From contig NQMI01000031.1 of the NCBI GenBank assembly GCA_002270565.1, positions 62,001-126,000 on the forward strand: DNA of 64,000 nucleotides. The letters run 5' to 3'. The position numbers were made by a program, and so were the translations under genes. Positions 57,106 to 63,515 of this stretch are shown in pieces. Numbering within the stretch: the stretch's first letter is position 1; each line of letters starts with the position of its first letter. Under the pieces are notes generated by a model. That model saw only the letters and a program-made list of their open reading frames with translations, ran no database searches and had not been told where the DNA came from. This stretch comes from Stenocarpella maydis (taxonomy: Eukaryota > Ascomycota > Sordariomycetes > Diaporthales > Diaporthaceae).

Positions 57106-59039
57106 GTGTGAACGAAGGGACTTCTGAAATTGTGTGTACATAGTCATACCATACCCAGTTCACCATGATCTTGTAGTGCTTGCACACATATAGTGCTCCT
57201 AATATCAGGCGCAACCACGGGGTTTGGAGTATCTGGGTTCTGATATCCTCAATCTAGGGTTTCTTTAACAATTAACTAAAGTATACTTCTTAAGAAGAAG
57301 TAGGTAGTTTCATTTTCAATCTGGTTATAATTCTCCTTTAAAAAAAGAAAGAGCTATAACAATCCCTTTATATGGTTATAAATACTTAAAAACCTAATAT
57401 TTAATAAAAGTATATTTAGTAATTATTTATAAAATAATATTAGTCTTATAATAAAGCTAATTAAGTTCATTTTAAGATGTATATAACTAAATTATAATAA
57501 AGAAAAATCTTATTAGATTTTTTAAGTAAATATTCAGCTTAAAAATATTAAAATTTAAATCTTAAAGTAGGATCTTAGCTCCTTTAAATATAGCTTTAAT
57601 ATTATCTTCTATAAAGCTATTCTTATAAGCTACTTTAAATATGATAAGAATTTAAACTTAATAATATAATTAATAAAGGTTTAAAAAGGCTTATTAATTT
57701 ACTTATAAAAATATATATTTAGGTAGTAAATATAATATAACATGATATTTGATAATTAAACTAAATAGGAAAAATATAACAATATATAAATAATAATAAT
57801 CTTATTTTCCTTAAAATATTAATTAAACTTAGCTAATATATAAGTTTTATAATTATTTATAATTAATATTTAATAATTTACATGTTTTGAAAAGTTTTAT
57901 ATATTTATTAGAGTATTAAACTTATTTTAAGTTAGCTTTATTATTTATTTATTAAGTTAAAGTAAAATAAATCACCTAAAAGCTAGAAAATATTTAATCT
58001 ATATTTTAACTTAAAAGGTAATAAGTAGCTTAAATAATAATAAACAATAAAATATGTTAGCATATTATATTAATATATTTAACAGTTACTATCTTTTTTT
58101 AATAATTAAGCTAATGGATTTAGCTTTTTCAAGATCATTAATATATATAAGTATTATTAATATAATAATTATACTTATTATAAGGCCAGTTTTATTAAAG
58201 TTATAAAAGTTATTATTAATAATCTTATGTTTCGCCATTATATTCTAAAGAAGCTTAAATTAAATTTTAATAATCTTTTAATATTTATAAAAAGCCGTTT
58301 AATAATTATAAAGATACTTGAATTTAGTTTTTAGGTTACATTATATATTTATAAAGTATTAAGCTTGATGACTACTTATAAATTAATATTCTATAATGCT
58401 AATAAGAAGTTAGGTATATATTTTATATTAGAAAGTTTTTAGGGAAATCTTTAAGTATTTTAATCAATAATATATTTAATAAATATTTATTTGTTAATTT
58501 AATTAAATTTGTAAGTATTAATACACAAATTTCTATAACTTTAATATTGACTTATTTTTCACTATAATATAAGAGATTAAGAATTTAAGTAGCTTTATAT
58601 ATTATTACAGGTTTTATATTAATTTATTTAGATTTATAAATAGGTTAAACTGCTAAAAATATTCTTTTCTTTTAAAATATAGGATATATATTATTATTAT
58701 AAAATGTTACTATATTGGATACTTAAATTAATAAGTTAGTACAATAATAATATAAAAATTAGAAATGAAATTGGTACTAAAAAAGAACTATTTTATTAAA
58801 ACCCTAATACTTATAAGCCTGCCTATACTATCCTAACTTATTCAAATTAATAAATTTAATTAGAAATAAGTAAGTAAGTATAGTTTATATTAATTAATGC
58901 TAATTTTTATTAATTATTTAGCCCTAGGTAGGTGCTAGGTATAATGATTATAGCTGGTTCTTGGCTAATAAAACCTAGTAAGCGGGTTTATATTTAAGAA
59001 GCGTTTAAGGAAAAATTATTCTATGTAATATAATAATAG
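57106..59039. other. AT-rich RIP-type block
   Basis: Normal composition for about 150 bp after the gene, then extreme AT to about 58915. No domain could be recognised. Probably a heavily mutated retrotransposon. Confidence 0.5.
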
Positions 59040-59580
59040 TGTTAAACGGAACCGCTCAGCAAGGAGTTACCCTAGACTTCTTGCAAGGAGTTACCCTAGA
59101 CTTGCGAGTCAGGCGATTTTCGCTAAGTACGCCCAGTGCATGCGTGACGCAAGATGAGTTTGGTGGCCGTGAGTCGATTATTTTGGCCTGCATTTGCACC
59201 TTAATTCAGACCTCTGCATTACCCTTATTTCTTACCCAAAAAGTATATAACTTAGTGCATTAGATAGCTTGATTTCTAAAGTTTATATGTACTTAATTTG
59301 GGTATTACTAGGGCTATAGTTGGCTGGTTGCTTAGAACCAAAGATGGTGTGTTGGAAGGGCGAATTTTCCGGCATTTGCAAATTTGCACCAGAGCCTACC
59401 GCAGCGTGCCCAGGGGTGAGACGACGTCGGAGGGTATATAAGGAGGGCTTACAGAAGCCCAACTTAATTCAATACAAAGTTGTCCAGACCATTGTCAATC
59501 GTCCCAATTCGCCTCAGAGCACCATATTACGACCCTGCTGAAATACACACACGCTGAACTGAATGCTATTCTATAGCACA
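59040..59580 (+). mobile_element. LTR-like repeat unit with its own promoter
   Basis: A sharply bounded GC-balanced unit inside AT-rich DNA. It starts TGTTAAACGG, carries a 21-bp direct repeat (GCAAGGAGTTACCCTAGACTT at 59061 and 59084), a TATATAA box at 59435-59441 and a CT/AC-rich leader, and fades into AT-rich DNA after about 59575. Part of it (59210-59263) is present in inverted orientation at 1-54. TG start, internal TATA box and copy number above one fit an LTR. The right boundary and any target duplication were not found. Confidence 0.5.
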
Positions 59581-59589
59581 AATTCATCA

Positions 59590-60593
59590 GAATAACGAAT
59601 TTGATTATAATATTTCTTTAAATATAATATTTATTATTTAGCTAAAGGCTTAATACTCTTTAGCCATAGTAGTATTAATAATGAAGTAAGAATTTTTATA
59701 AATACTTTAATATTAGTATTACCTAAGTATATAGGTATTCTCTTATAGAGAAATATCCTCTTAAGGGAAGTTTTTATATTATAATAGAGTTTCTTAAATA
59801 TTATCTTTATTTATTCCTTAAAATTAATATAAAACTTATTATATTTTTCTTTATTAAAAGTCTTATATATGTCCAATATTATAACTATACATATATATAT
59901 ATTTATATACTTTATTATAATTATAATAGTTATAAGTAAACCCTTATATTATAAATAATGGCTAAAATATTTAACTATACTCTTAATAAGTAAAGTATTC
60001 TTGATTATATTCTATATATTAATTAGGTTAATATCTATAGAAAGTATACTATTATTACCTTATTAAGGAGCTATTATAATGCTTAAATAGCTTAGTATAT
60101 AGAGTAGTAATATAGATTAGGGGTAAAAAGAAGTGCTTAAGTAAGATCCGAGTAAATAAATAATAATAAAGGGTAATGAGTAAATATAAATAAAGTAGTA
60201 ATAATGCATATACTAGCTAATAGGTTAACCTTAGTTATATATAGCTTATACTGAAGTAATTACTAAGATAATTGCTAAGGGGAATATTAAGATAGTAATA
60301 TTGTTAATCTTAACTCAAGAGTATTAATAAGTTATATAGCTAAAGGCAATTCTTAAGCAGTTGCTATTTCTTATAAAGCTTAAGGTATAATAGATATATA
60401 TATAAATATAATAAGTTATAGCCTATAGTATATAATTATCTCTTATATCTTATAATGGGTGATAAGGGTATTACTAAACGTAATCTTTAAGTAATAATCT
60501 CTTTAAAACTATTAATATAGCCGCTATTAAGTAATAAAAAGTCTATCTCTATAACTTTACTAATCTATAATTGCTCTTATGCCTACTAATTAG
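59590..60593 (-). mobile_element. Heavily RIP-mutated second copy of the copia element, 5' part
   Basis: The AT-rich DNA left of the LTR at 60594 follows the leader/gag-upstream region of the 22-31 kb element. Aligned words include AGGTTAACCT (60204-60235 against 30140-30170) and the stretch just before the LTR (TCTATAATT..CTACTAAT against TCTATAATTCGCCCC..CCACTAAT). Homology is traceable from about 60180 to the LTR; left of this it is too mutated to prove. Confidence 0.55.
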
Positions 60594-60815
60594 TATTGGA
60601 TGGGTTATATATTATAATATAAATAGTAGTAGTTATTATATCGATTTGTTTAAGAAGTAGTGGTGTGGCGGGTGTAGCCTATATAGCTAGGTCAGGCGTA
60701 TATAGTACAGGGTGGTTGCTTAGTTATCCGACTTAGTTAGCAACCACTCATTGATACTACAGTACTAACTGTAGTAGTAGCCCACTGGTGTGCCGTGCGT
60801 ACTACTGTTGCTATA
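60594..60815 (-). repeat. RIP-mutated copia LTR (third copy)
   Basis: Starts TATTGGATGGGTTA (TGTTGG with G-to-A) and ends TTGCTATA (TTGCCACA with two C-to-T). It keeps GTGGCGGGTGTAGCC, GGTGGTTGCTTAGT and TAGCCCACTGGTGTG in order. Its limits agree with the two LTRs of the larger element. Confidence 0.75.
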
Positions 60816-61323
60816 TAAATACAATAAAATTATATTACTTATTAATATATTTTACTAATTAATAAAATATATTATTAAACTTTTTCATATAAAAGATTTT
60901 AAATAAATATTTAAATAATTCCAATAAAAATAATTAATGATGAAAAATAAAAACTATTATATATAAAATAATAATAAATAATAATAATTTTACTTATTTA
61001 AATATTAAATAAATTAGAAAACCTTTAAAATAATACTCTTAAAAACCTTATAAGAAACTTAAATAGGAATATTAAAAAATACTTAAAATATAACATTTTA
61101 ATTATATTAAATGTTAATATTATTAAAAGTATTATTATAAAACTATTTATAATTTAAACTATTAAAGAACTTTATTAAGCTTAAATACTTTAAAAGATTA
61201 AAGATAAATTACAATTCTAATTCCTAATATAACTCTCAATTCCTATTTAATAATTCTCTTATCAGCTTGGGGCTGTAAACTGTAAGGGAATAAAACCGAG
61301 AAAGAGAAACATAACATACCATC
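60816..61323. other. AT-rich block reaching the EVE gene remnant
   Basis: Extreme AT to about 61255, then a short normal stretch leading directly to the truncated gene. No gene or domain seen. Confidence 0.5.
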
Positions 61324-61794
61324 CTACAGCTCAGGCTCGCTGTTAGCAGCCAGGTCGTCGATCAAGAACCGCACGTCCACCCCGTTCTCGATGTGCGACT
61401 CGGGCTCCGCCTTCATGAGCCAGTACTGCCTACCCGATTGCTCTGCTTTCTTTACCTGCTCGTTGGGGCCAGCCTTGGTCACCGTGGTGGGCTTTGCTTC
61501 CGCCGCCTCGATGCCGCCTTTGCCGCCGGCCTTGGGGGTCTTCTTGGTGGCGGCTGCTGCTTGCTGATCGCTGGTGCCATCCTCGGCATCTTCTTCTCCC
61601 TTGGCCTTTGGCTTCTTTGCCGTTGTGGCGAGTTTCTTCTTCCCGGGAGGAGTGGGCTCCTTCTTTGGCGTGGCTGCTGCTGGCGGTGCAGGCTCACGGG
61701 CTGCTGCGGTTGACGTGCGCTGACGCGTGGACCGGCGCGGCTGCACCTCGTCCGCGGGGCTGTCTGGCTGGCCTGACTTCCTCTTTGGTGGCAT
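61324..61794 (-). pseudogene. Truncated EVE-domain (THYN1-like) gene
   Basis: The open frame of 156 codons from the ATG at 61794 has a Lys/Pro/Ala-rich basic N-terminus typical of fungal THYN1-like nuclear proteins (KKEPTPPGKKKLATTAKKPK). It then enters the EVE domain with RQYWLMKAEPESHIENGVDVRFLIDDLAANSEPE. In the family this is followed by a Trp-Asp-Gly-Val-Arg-Asn block. Here the codons are CTG, TAG, GAT, GGT, so the Trp is a stop codon (TGG to TAG, RIP-type), and no further EVE coding sequence is found: within about 60 bp the DNA turns into AT-rich repeat. Only about 25 of some 150 EVE residues remain. The EVE domain binds modified nucleic-acid bases; this copy should not be functional. 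Confidence 0.75.
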
Positions 61795-61994: not shown

Positions 61995-62135
61995 GGCGCT
62001 TTGGCGGAGTGGTTAACGCGATGGCCGTAAGTTGTGCTCAGAGGAATATATTAACCCACCAAGCTGTTGCTAACATTAATTTCCAGTGCTAAGCCATTTC
62101 CTTCGGGAGCGCAGGTTCGAATCCTGCAGGCGTCG
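61995..62135 (+). tRNA. tRNA-Ser (anticodon GCT) split by an mRNA-type intron
   Basis: Exons are 61995-62026 and 62087-62135. Acceptor arms GGCGCTT and AGGCGTC pair (with two G.T), discriminator G at 62135. The D-arm is GCG/CGC with a GTGGTTAA loop; the anticodon stem is ATGGC/GCCAT, and the loop after joining reads C-T-GCT-A-A, with T33 and the GCT anticodon at 62088-62090. The variable arm is 13 nt (TTCC/GGGA hairpin), as in class II serine tRNAs, and the T-arm is GCAGG TTCGAAT CCTGC. The A box (TGGCGGAGTGG) and B box (GGTTCGAATCC) match Pol III consensus. The 60-bp insert lies between positions 32 and 33, 5' of the anticodon, unlike normal nuclear tRNA introns (37/38). Without its removal the anticodon loop cannot form. 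Confidence 0.88.
62027..62086 (+). other. 60-bp spliceosomal-type intron inside the tRNA gene
   Basis: Begins GTAAGT, has GCTAAC at 62069-62074 and ends TTCCAG, with about 12 nt between branch A and AG. Length and all three signals match the mRNA introns of the protein genes in this window (60-154 bp). The GT-AG junction is unambiguous, since no alternative boundary gives a 7-nt anticodon loop with T33. Confidence 0.8.
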
Positions 62136-62148
62136 TTTGATTGTCTGA

Positions 62149-62152
62149 TTTT
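62149..62152 (+). terminator. Pol III terminator T-run of the tRNA gene
   Basis: TTTT 14 bases after the tRNA 3' end, followed by a TTTTT at about 62158. This is normal for a Pol III gene. Confidence 0.6.
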
Positions 62153-63515
62153 AGAACTTTTTAATAGTTATTCGGCTTTTAATTTATTCCTTATCAATTT
62201 CCTAGTACGTCTTTTCTCCTTTAACTTCTTTGCTGTTCTCCTTAATATAAGGTACTAAAAAGTAACAAGAATTAAAAAATAATTAGTTTTAAATAAATTT
62301 ACTAGTTTTAAGTTATTATATTATTTTTAAAGCTTAATATTTAGTAAAATTTAATATTAATCAATATTAATTATTCTTAATTTTATAAATTTAAAATGAT
62401 TAAAATAAATATATTTTTATTTATTAAGAAGTAACTAGGTATTATATATAGTTATCTTACTTTTAAATATAAAAAACGTTTATACTTATTATACTAAACC
62501 CATTAAACTAAGGTTAAAATAAATGTAAATTTTAGGGTAGCTTAATATATATAAAGTTTAGCTATATTGTTTTAATTTAATTCATAGATTTTTCTTATAT
62601 AAGCTATATTAGAAATATAAAATTATAAGTGTATAAAATTAAATTTCTTAAGTAATTAAATGAAGAAAATTTATGGAAATCCTGAAAACAAAACCGTAAC
62701 TTATTTATAAAGTTATAATCATACCCTGAAAATTTCGTCCGTTTTAGGCCTAATCTGAGGGTTTTAGCAGGGTATATACAGACATTTTTTATATAAGAAA
62801 GCAAGGTAGCTACTTCCTAGTCCTGGCTACTTCCTAGTATCCTATATTAATATTAATTTAAAAGAAACAAATTTTAAAAAGAATAGCTTTTAAATAAAAC
62901 TACTTTTTATTACATAATATTAACTTTACTTTTAAATTTTGAATTTATTATAAATTATCAATATATATATATCTATTAATGAATATTAATTAAGCTAATA
63001 TAAACTATTAAAAAGTAGCTAAATTTAAGCTACTTTAGTATTTATTATATTTTAGTATATTAATTTAGGTTACGGTACTTAAAGGCCTTATAAGGATATT
63101 ATAAAGAAGTAAGTAGTATATAGTAAGCAGCCTAAATAGTACTAAAAAGAATTATATATTAAAGGGGCTTCTTATAAAGACATAAGTTATAAGTAGCTTT
63201 AAAGTAATAAAGTAGTAAAAAGGGATTTTATAAAAGTAAGAGAAAAAGAGTAAAAAAAAAGAAGGGTAAGTTTAATTATATTTATCTTCTTAAGAATATA
63301 GTATTTATATATTACTATCTTACTACTTAACTATTATATATATTTATTTACTTTATTTATATTTCTAACTTTTATAATTTAAAATTTTAAATACTTTAAA
63401 GATAATGAATTATTTAAAATATTAATATAGTTCTTATACTTTAGCTAACTTTATTATATTATAATATTATTATACCTAAGTAGGGTAAATCTGAAGTATA
63501 ATCTATTAATTATTA
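62153..63515. other. AT-rich block, likely mutated LTR
   Basis: Extreme AT with no surviving frame. It includes a repeated CTACTTCCTAGT at 62810-62838. Its right end adjoins the leader of a retroelement at 63516, so part of it is probably that element's 5' LTR. Confidence 0.45.

Follow-up and report, generated by a model that had tools for sequence, protein, structure and literature searches.

Five tRNA genes of one fungal genome are interrupted in the anticodon loop by short insertions with the signals of mRNA introns, and these insertions are very probably U2-type spliceosomal introns in Pol III tRNA genes, which are removed by the spliceosome. One of the five is a tRNA-Ser(GCU) gene, the other four encode tRNA-Lys(CUU). 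The Ser gene is located in the window, i.e., the whole stretch of 64,000 nucleotides that was analyzed (G000:C226:62001-126000), which is part of a genome of 53.5 Mb in 312 contigs. Judged from a single protein of the window, the fungus probably belongs to the Diaporthales and is close to Diaporthe. If the interpretation is correct, five tRNA genes with exact mRNA-type introns break the rule that tRNAs bypass the spliceosome, the spliceosome processes a second class of Pol III transcripts, and the decoding of particular codons is linked to splicing. In addition, the shared boundary shifts described below offer a natural experiment in which the sliding and the gain of introns can be studied in a non-coding gene.

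The original prediction had claimed that a tRNA-Ser(GCT) gene is split between nucleotides 32 and 33 by 60 bp. Rfam and ARAGORN analyses confirmed the claim and showed that the gene is complete. The tRNA model RF00005 covers positions 61995-62135 (+) end to end (1-71 of 71, 42.5 bits, gathering score 29). This was the sole Rfam match of the window at gathering scores, and its alignment contains 66 nt at the anticodon loop where the consensus has 6. With default settings ARAGORN did not report a gene at this locus. When introns of 0-200 nt were allowed, a tRNA-Ser(gct) with a 60-nt intron was found, with 62027 as the first intron base, and after removal of the 60 bp an intronless tRNA-Ser(gct) was found. 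The tRNA has the full fold, the GCU anticodon and a long variable arm. All stems pair, as judged by reading the sequence, and the acceptor stem has two G-T wobbles. The presumed A box, which was assigned from its likeness to the consensus, and the other features are listed in Table 1.

Table 1. Features of the tRNA-Ser(GCU) gene, in positions of the window, and of two U6 loci of the same genome.
Feature	Position	Strand	Basis or remark
Exon 1 of tRNA-Ser(GCU), nucleotides 1-32: acceptor 5' strand, D arm, anticodon stem 5' strand, C32	61995..62026	+	RF00005 alignment; ARAGORN
Presumed A box TGGCGGAGTGG of the internal Pol III promoter	62002..62012	+	read from sequence
60-bp spliceosomal-type intron, tRNA position 32/33	62027..62086	+	rebuilt tRNA; ARAGORN; signal scan
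5' splice site GTAAGT	62027..62032	+	sequence
Branch-point box GCTAAC	62069..62074	+	sequence; branch A at 62073, 13 nt before intron end (computed)
3' splice site CAG	62084..62086	+	sequence
Exon 2 of tRNA-Ser(GCU): T33, anticodon GCT, A37 A38, anticodon stem 3' strand, long variable arm, T arm, acceptor 3' strand, discriminator G	62087..62135	+	RF00005 alignment; ARAGORN on joined exons
B box GGTTCGAATCC of the internal Pol III promoter	62114..62124 (C226:124114-124124)	+	pattern search
First four-T run 3' of the Ser gene, likely Pol III terminator; five-T run next	62149..62152	+	
U6 snRNA gene with 56-nt mRNA-type intron	G000:C167:53947-54101 (L110 1501-1655)	-	Rfam, 53.9 bits
Weaker U6-like copy	G000:C301:645429-645585 (L112 about 230-386)		39.4 bits, below cut-off

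The insertions start with GT and end with AG at the exact boundaries that restore the exons in all five genes. Besides the final AG, all five also contain GTNNGT and GCTAAC, with the branch A 9-13 nt before the intron end. The donors are GTAAGT (twice), GTATGT, GTACGT and GTTAGT. The lengths of 55-60 nt fit the typical fungal spliceosomal intron of 50-80 nt. A coding intron of the window, which was read by eye, has GTAAGA, ACTGAC and a terminal AG. For a random 60-mer of the local composition, the probability of a GTRNGT start and a YAG end together with CTRAC close to that end is about 1.6e-6. Free-floating strings of the type GTNNGT...CTRAC...YAG occur seven times per strand in the window, and a Markov control had a mean of 5.7 and a maximum of 14. 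Because such loose intron-like strings are common, the weight rests on the exact tRNA register and on the four further genes.

These four tRNA-Lys(CUU) genes (C278, C258, C123 and C276) have GT...GCTAAC...AG introns of 55-57 bp. C278 and C258 were found by reading tRNA loci detected with Rfam, C123 with a pattern derived from the introns of these two, and C276 with a pattern that combines the branch box and the B box. The introns are located in the anticodon or directly 3' of it, i.e., at 34/35, twice at 35/36, and at 36/37. The respective junctions are CTC/TTA (C258), CTCT/TA (C278 and C123) and CTCTT/A (C276). All four restore CUCUUA, that is C32 U33 C34 U35 U36 A37, and donor and acceptor are shifted together. 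In each of the four genes, an additional intron of 20-22 nt, which is an ordinary one, follows at 37/38. The only intron of a fifth Lys(CUU) gene, C292 (L071 434-572), is also located at 37/38 and is unusually long with 66 nt. The mature sequence is identical in all five Lys(CUU) genes, C292 included.

Among the four genes the mean pairwise identity was 74% for the spliceosomal-type introns (range 69-81%), 100% for the mature tRNA and 92% for the 37/38 intron. The flanks are 57% identical in the upstream 60 bp, 67% in the downstream 60 bp and 44% in the downstream 61-120 bp. An intron interior that drifts, boundaries that slide and a product that stays exact form a pattern that would be expected under selection for exact GT-AG removal. 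Consensus folding of the four precursors did not reveal a strong conserved intron structure. The shared shifts in the four Lys genes strongly support the view, put forward for the Ser gene in the original prediction, that a spliceosomal-type intron at a non-canonical position is the best reading. Removal of the Lys introns need not be essential for life, since C292 encodes the same tRNA and has no intron of this kind.

After removal of the spliceosomal-type introns ARAGORN recognized Lys(ctt) with an intron of 20-22 nt at 37/38 in 4/4 cases, and the 37/38 junctions were then in the same register as 6/9 control introns. The unaltered genes were called His, Gln, Gln and Lys. It had been anticipated that standard tRNA finders would miscall such genes. 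This applies to three of the four Lys genes, which received His or Gln labels, so that tRNA annotation can mislabel such genes; it does not apply to the Ser gene, which ARAGORN reads correctly with introns allowed.

Other tRNA loci of the genome were analyzed as well, and the spliceosomal signals were present in 0/27 of them (matches of 79-139 nt). The Rfam tRNA search of the genome gave 57 matches from 63 scored of 1343 candidates, and it missed the Ser gene itself. The wider search for further cases used patterns of branch box and B box, which miss other branch boxes and introns outside of the anticodon arm. The first pattern had 22 matches, and five of these were the genes described above. 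In C124, C251 and C288, CTAACA reads like the anticodon loop of Val(AAC), and the tRNA matches indicate ordinary introns. On inspection by eye, C156, C188 and C307 resemble Glu(CTC) genes that have the string within the D arm, and the remaining matches apart from C236 look like chance. The second pattern (27 matches) detected two Arg genes and no additional case by eye; its match in C54 had no Rfam match. The third pattern (86 matches) detected no case by eye. The C236 match (L093 about 225-370) consists of a T-arm-like hairpin, GTAGGTTCGAACCCTAC, with a perfect B box, a T run after it and CTAAC...CAG upstream. It had no Rfam match at E 0.1 and is possibly an unrecognised Pol III gene.

Whether intact Ser-GCT genes exist elsewhere in the genome had been named as a check of the prediction, and whole-genome searches found none. 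A similarity search with the Ser gene and its flanks matched only the gene itself. The pattern of an intact Ser anticodon arm, with up to 2 mismatches, was present at one place, which had no tRNA match. The Ser 5' half with up to 3 mismatches and the exact Ser T arm each have a single occurrence in the genome. Within these searches, which are blind to copies with more than 3 mismatches in the 5' half or in assembly gaps, the gene is the only predicted Ser-GCU gene. In eukaryotes the decoding of AGC and AGU requires tRNA-Ser(GCU). Because no other gene was found, AGC/AGU decoding would depend on this one, and for the same reason the gene is likely to be functional, and its expression is predicted. 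Partial decay is possible, because the acceptor stem has two wobbles and the adjoining DNA is very AT-rich (downstream GC 0.18-0.26). Searches with exact 5'-half patterns of the Lys and the Ser genes found nothing in viral contigs, and the Lys pattern found nothing in genome contigs; these collections are non-fungal, and therefore the results say nothing about conservation.

The following maturation route is the best explanation of the sequences. The Ser-GCU precursor would be transcribed by Pol III from the internal A and B boxes. The spliceosome would recognize GUAAGU, GCUAAC and CAG by intron definition and would join C32 to U33. The splicing would yield the full anticodon loop CUGCUAA, and end trimming and CCA addition would take place as usual. 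In the case of the four Lys-CUU genes, the spliceosome would first take out the intron of 55-57 nt and thereby rebuild CUU. The geometry of the anticodon arm would then suit the tRNA endonuclease, which would remove the remaining 20-22 nt at 37/38. This order is proposed because the 37/38 site does not adjoin the anticodon stem until the first step has taken place. The A box, the B box and the downstream T run of the Ser gene point to Pol III. A four-T run is absent from all five introns and is present within 30 bp downstream of each gene; introns without such a run would suit Pol III, as weak evidence. The Ser and the four Lys tRNAs probably need the spliceosome. From the sequences we infer that Pol III transcribes the genes, that the spliceosome removes the introns, that in the Lys genes it acts before the endonuclease, and that growth depends on this removal.

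A more far-reaching scenario is conceivable, to which we give somewhat less than even chances. In this lineage tRNA maturation would have been placed under the spliceosome, with the single-copy tRNA-Ser(GCU) maturing only via the spliceosome and the tRNA-Lys(CUU) genes via two unrelated machines in series. The Lys series, which starts with C276 as a gene open to processing by either route, would show how the endonuclease hands an intron over to the spliceosome. Reverse splicing into the exposed anticodon loop may have carried the intron from one tRNA gene to another, and AGY decoding would be coupled to the splicing capacity.

Removal of an intron from a tRNA by the spliceosome is plausible because the same genome has a U6 gene with an mRNA-type intron. 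The genome has two U6 matches above the Rfam cut-off, C167 with an intron (53.9 bits) and C1 without (54.2 bits). The C167 intron has the structure GT...ACTGAC...AG and lies directly 5' of the AGC triad, and its removal restores GAGAGGAT/TAGCATGG. Its donor, GTAGTA, is not the usual one, and the B-box-like sequence GAGTTCAACTC is located within the intron. The weaker copy in C301 has a 48-nt GTAAGT...AG insertion at the same place, which contains GGTCCGATCC. The intronless copy (C1:1422323-1422421) departs from conserved U6 positions. The C167 intron is not a clean Pol III precedent within this genome, as the higher-scoring intronless copy exists. Introns of the mRNA type are found in U6 genes of other fungi as well. 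The U6 intron of fission yeast is spliced, showing that a Pol III transcript can be spliced, and it is thought to have originated by reverse splicing (PMC10484740). The present introns share with it that a spliceosomal intron resides in a short gene for a Pol III RNA and lies close to nucleotides that are critical for function. However, U6 is a component of the spliceosome, whereas tRNA is not, and the introns described here are located in the anticodon loop of five tRNA genes.

Another related case is found in lichen-forming fungi, whose nuclear rDNA contains spliceosomal introns (57 bp long in the case described), one of which yeast removes from a Pol I rRNA transcript (PMC8527467). These are likewise short and spliceosomal and are located in a structural, non-Pol II RNA, but the host is a Pol I rRNA and not a tRNA. 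The canonical 37/38 intron that is removed by the Sen endonuclease also interrupts the anticodon loop, and the Lys genes carry one additionally; in contrast, the present introns are at 32/33, 34/35, 35/36 and 36/37 and are defined by GT-branch-AG signals. tRNA splicing has been described as independent of the spliceosome (PMC13149111), and archaeal-type introns are those that one source names for nuclear tRNA. The string "spliceosom" is absent from the main texts of PMC4090602 and PMC4033280. In agreement with the expectation that the arrangement has no described equivalent, none was found among the papers listed by searches of the open-licence PubMed Central literature, and an earlier description is possible. 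The type of intron is known, and the tRNA gene as its home would be new.

One proposal for the origin of the introns is compatible with removal by the spliceosome, namely that a mobile introner-like element was copied into the tRNA genes. Introner-like elements of fungi are short, complete spliceosomal introns that were gained at new places. The introns described here share these properties, but no high-copy family was found, and we regard this origin as unlikely. In the Ser intron and in two of the Lys introns, GCTAAC is preceded by AACCCACCA at a distance of 0-10 nt, and the combination of AACCCACCA and GCTAAC is confined genome-wide to these three tRNA introns (3/9 matches of a wider pattern, for which a reversed-pattern control had 4 matches; AACCCACCA was chosen after it had been seen). 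However, a 27-base Lys motif, with up to 3 mismatches, was present at only three places, all of them Lys tRNA genes (the fourth Lys gene escaped this search), and a query of the Ser gene including its intron matched only itself, so that the many near-identical copies of an introner family were not observed. The similarity between Ser and Lys introns is also weak, with P values of 0.02 (best) and 0.105 (sum) for a dinucleotide-preserving shuffle and of 0.0024 (best) and 0.0088 (sum) for a single-base shuffle. In the series C276, C278/C123, C258 of the Lys genes, the intron is first located at the edge of the 37/38 intron and then successively deeper in the anticodon. On one reading, this series would represent an intron that was handed over by the endonuclease to the spliceosome. 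That the introns were gained when they reverse-spliced into an exposed loop is a suggestion only.

The original prediction had also considered that the tRNA is made inside a Pol II transcript, and this option was retained as a rival, albeit as a rather improbable one. The tRNAs would be part of a host lncRNA or mRNA, the introns would be removed by ordinary mRNA splicing, and the tRNA would be processed out later. This would explain the access of the spliceosome without any alteration of the spliceosome. However, the Ser gene has an A box, a B box and downstream T runs, the Lys flanks are little alike (57% upstream, 67% and then 44% downstream), and U6 of S. pombe is a Pol III transcript that is spliced (PMC10484740). 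A Pol II host transcript, if true, would leave the claim of splicing unchanged.

It is highly improbable that, as in archaea, nucleomorphs and Cyanidioschyzon, the Sen tRNA endonuclease cuts at positions other than the usual one and that the likeness to splice signals is accidental. Non-canonical positions and several introns per tRNA gene are known in such lineages, where they are discussed as the work of the tRNA endonuclease (PMC4090602). The introns described here share these two properties, and only the second Lys intron is located at the usual position 37/38. For C276, a single 75-nt intron at 37/38 leaves the anticodon intact and is called Lys ctt by ARAGORN; if one long intron at 37/38 were removed from C278, C123 and C258, the Lys body would, by reading, be left with the anticodons CUG, CUG and CGU, respectively. 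In the predicted fold of the unspliced C258 precursor the anticodon stem is extended, and one setting of the first junction of this precursor has 6 outer and 4 inner pairs, but 1/4 central pairs. At offsets 2,2 of a simple bulge-helix-bulge scan, the outer helix had 5 pairs at 37/38 in 4/4 Lys genes and 4-5 pairs in 6/9 controls. The Ser junction had an outer helix of only 1-3 pairs and a central helix of 2/4, compared with 1-3/4 in the controls; the scan separates poorly from controls, and one of the nine controls (Gln) had misplaced boundaries. Above all, cleavage by the endonuclease leaves unexplained that GT and AG are found at the tRNA-rebuilding boundaries in 5/5 genes, and that the full signals are absent from the 27 other loci.

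A similarly small probability is given to the view that the five genes are dead copies, i.e., pseudogenes with accidental or captured mRNA-type insertions, and that a working Ser-GCU gene is unassembled or too divergent. The AT-rich surroundings and the two acceptor wobbles of the Ser gene would fit this view, as would the existence of C292 and the distribution of the assembly over 312 contigs. However, the arms and both promoter boxes of the Ser gene are intact, and no other place lies within 3 mismatches of its 5' half. Mature-sequence drift, which marks pseudogenes, was not observed in the four Lys genes: they are identical to each other and to C292 while introns and flanks have diverged, and the boundaries shifted on both sides without damage to the anticodon. 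A recent insertion confined to one gene, another option of the original prediction, fits less well because five genes carry such introns. Removal by the spliceosome is the preferred reading for all five genes.

Some further observations concern the genome and the surroundings of the Ser gene. The sequence GGTTCGAANCC matches 71 places genome-wide, compared with 123 for a reversed control, and many tRNA genes have long introns. From these observations, tRNA genes may be scarce in the nuclear genome. In the window, positions 58001-61500 and 62001-63500 are very AT-rich blocks with a GC content of 0.15-0.33 and one stretch of 0.43. They flank a GC-rich segment of 500 bp and the tRNA-Ser gene on both sides, and resemble tracts of repeat-induced point mutation. 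An open frame on the minus strand (61501-61794, probably longer, with a start near 61794) is located about 200 bp from the tRNA-Ser gene in divergent orientation, and by eye its product is rich in Lys, Pro and Ala. One protein of the window is 96% identical to a metagenome protein, 95% to a protein of Diaporthe eres and 91% to one of Cytospora.
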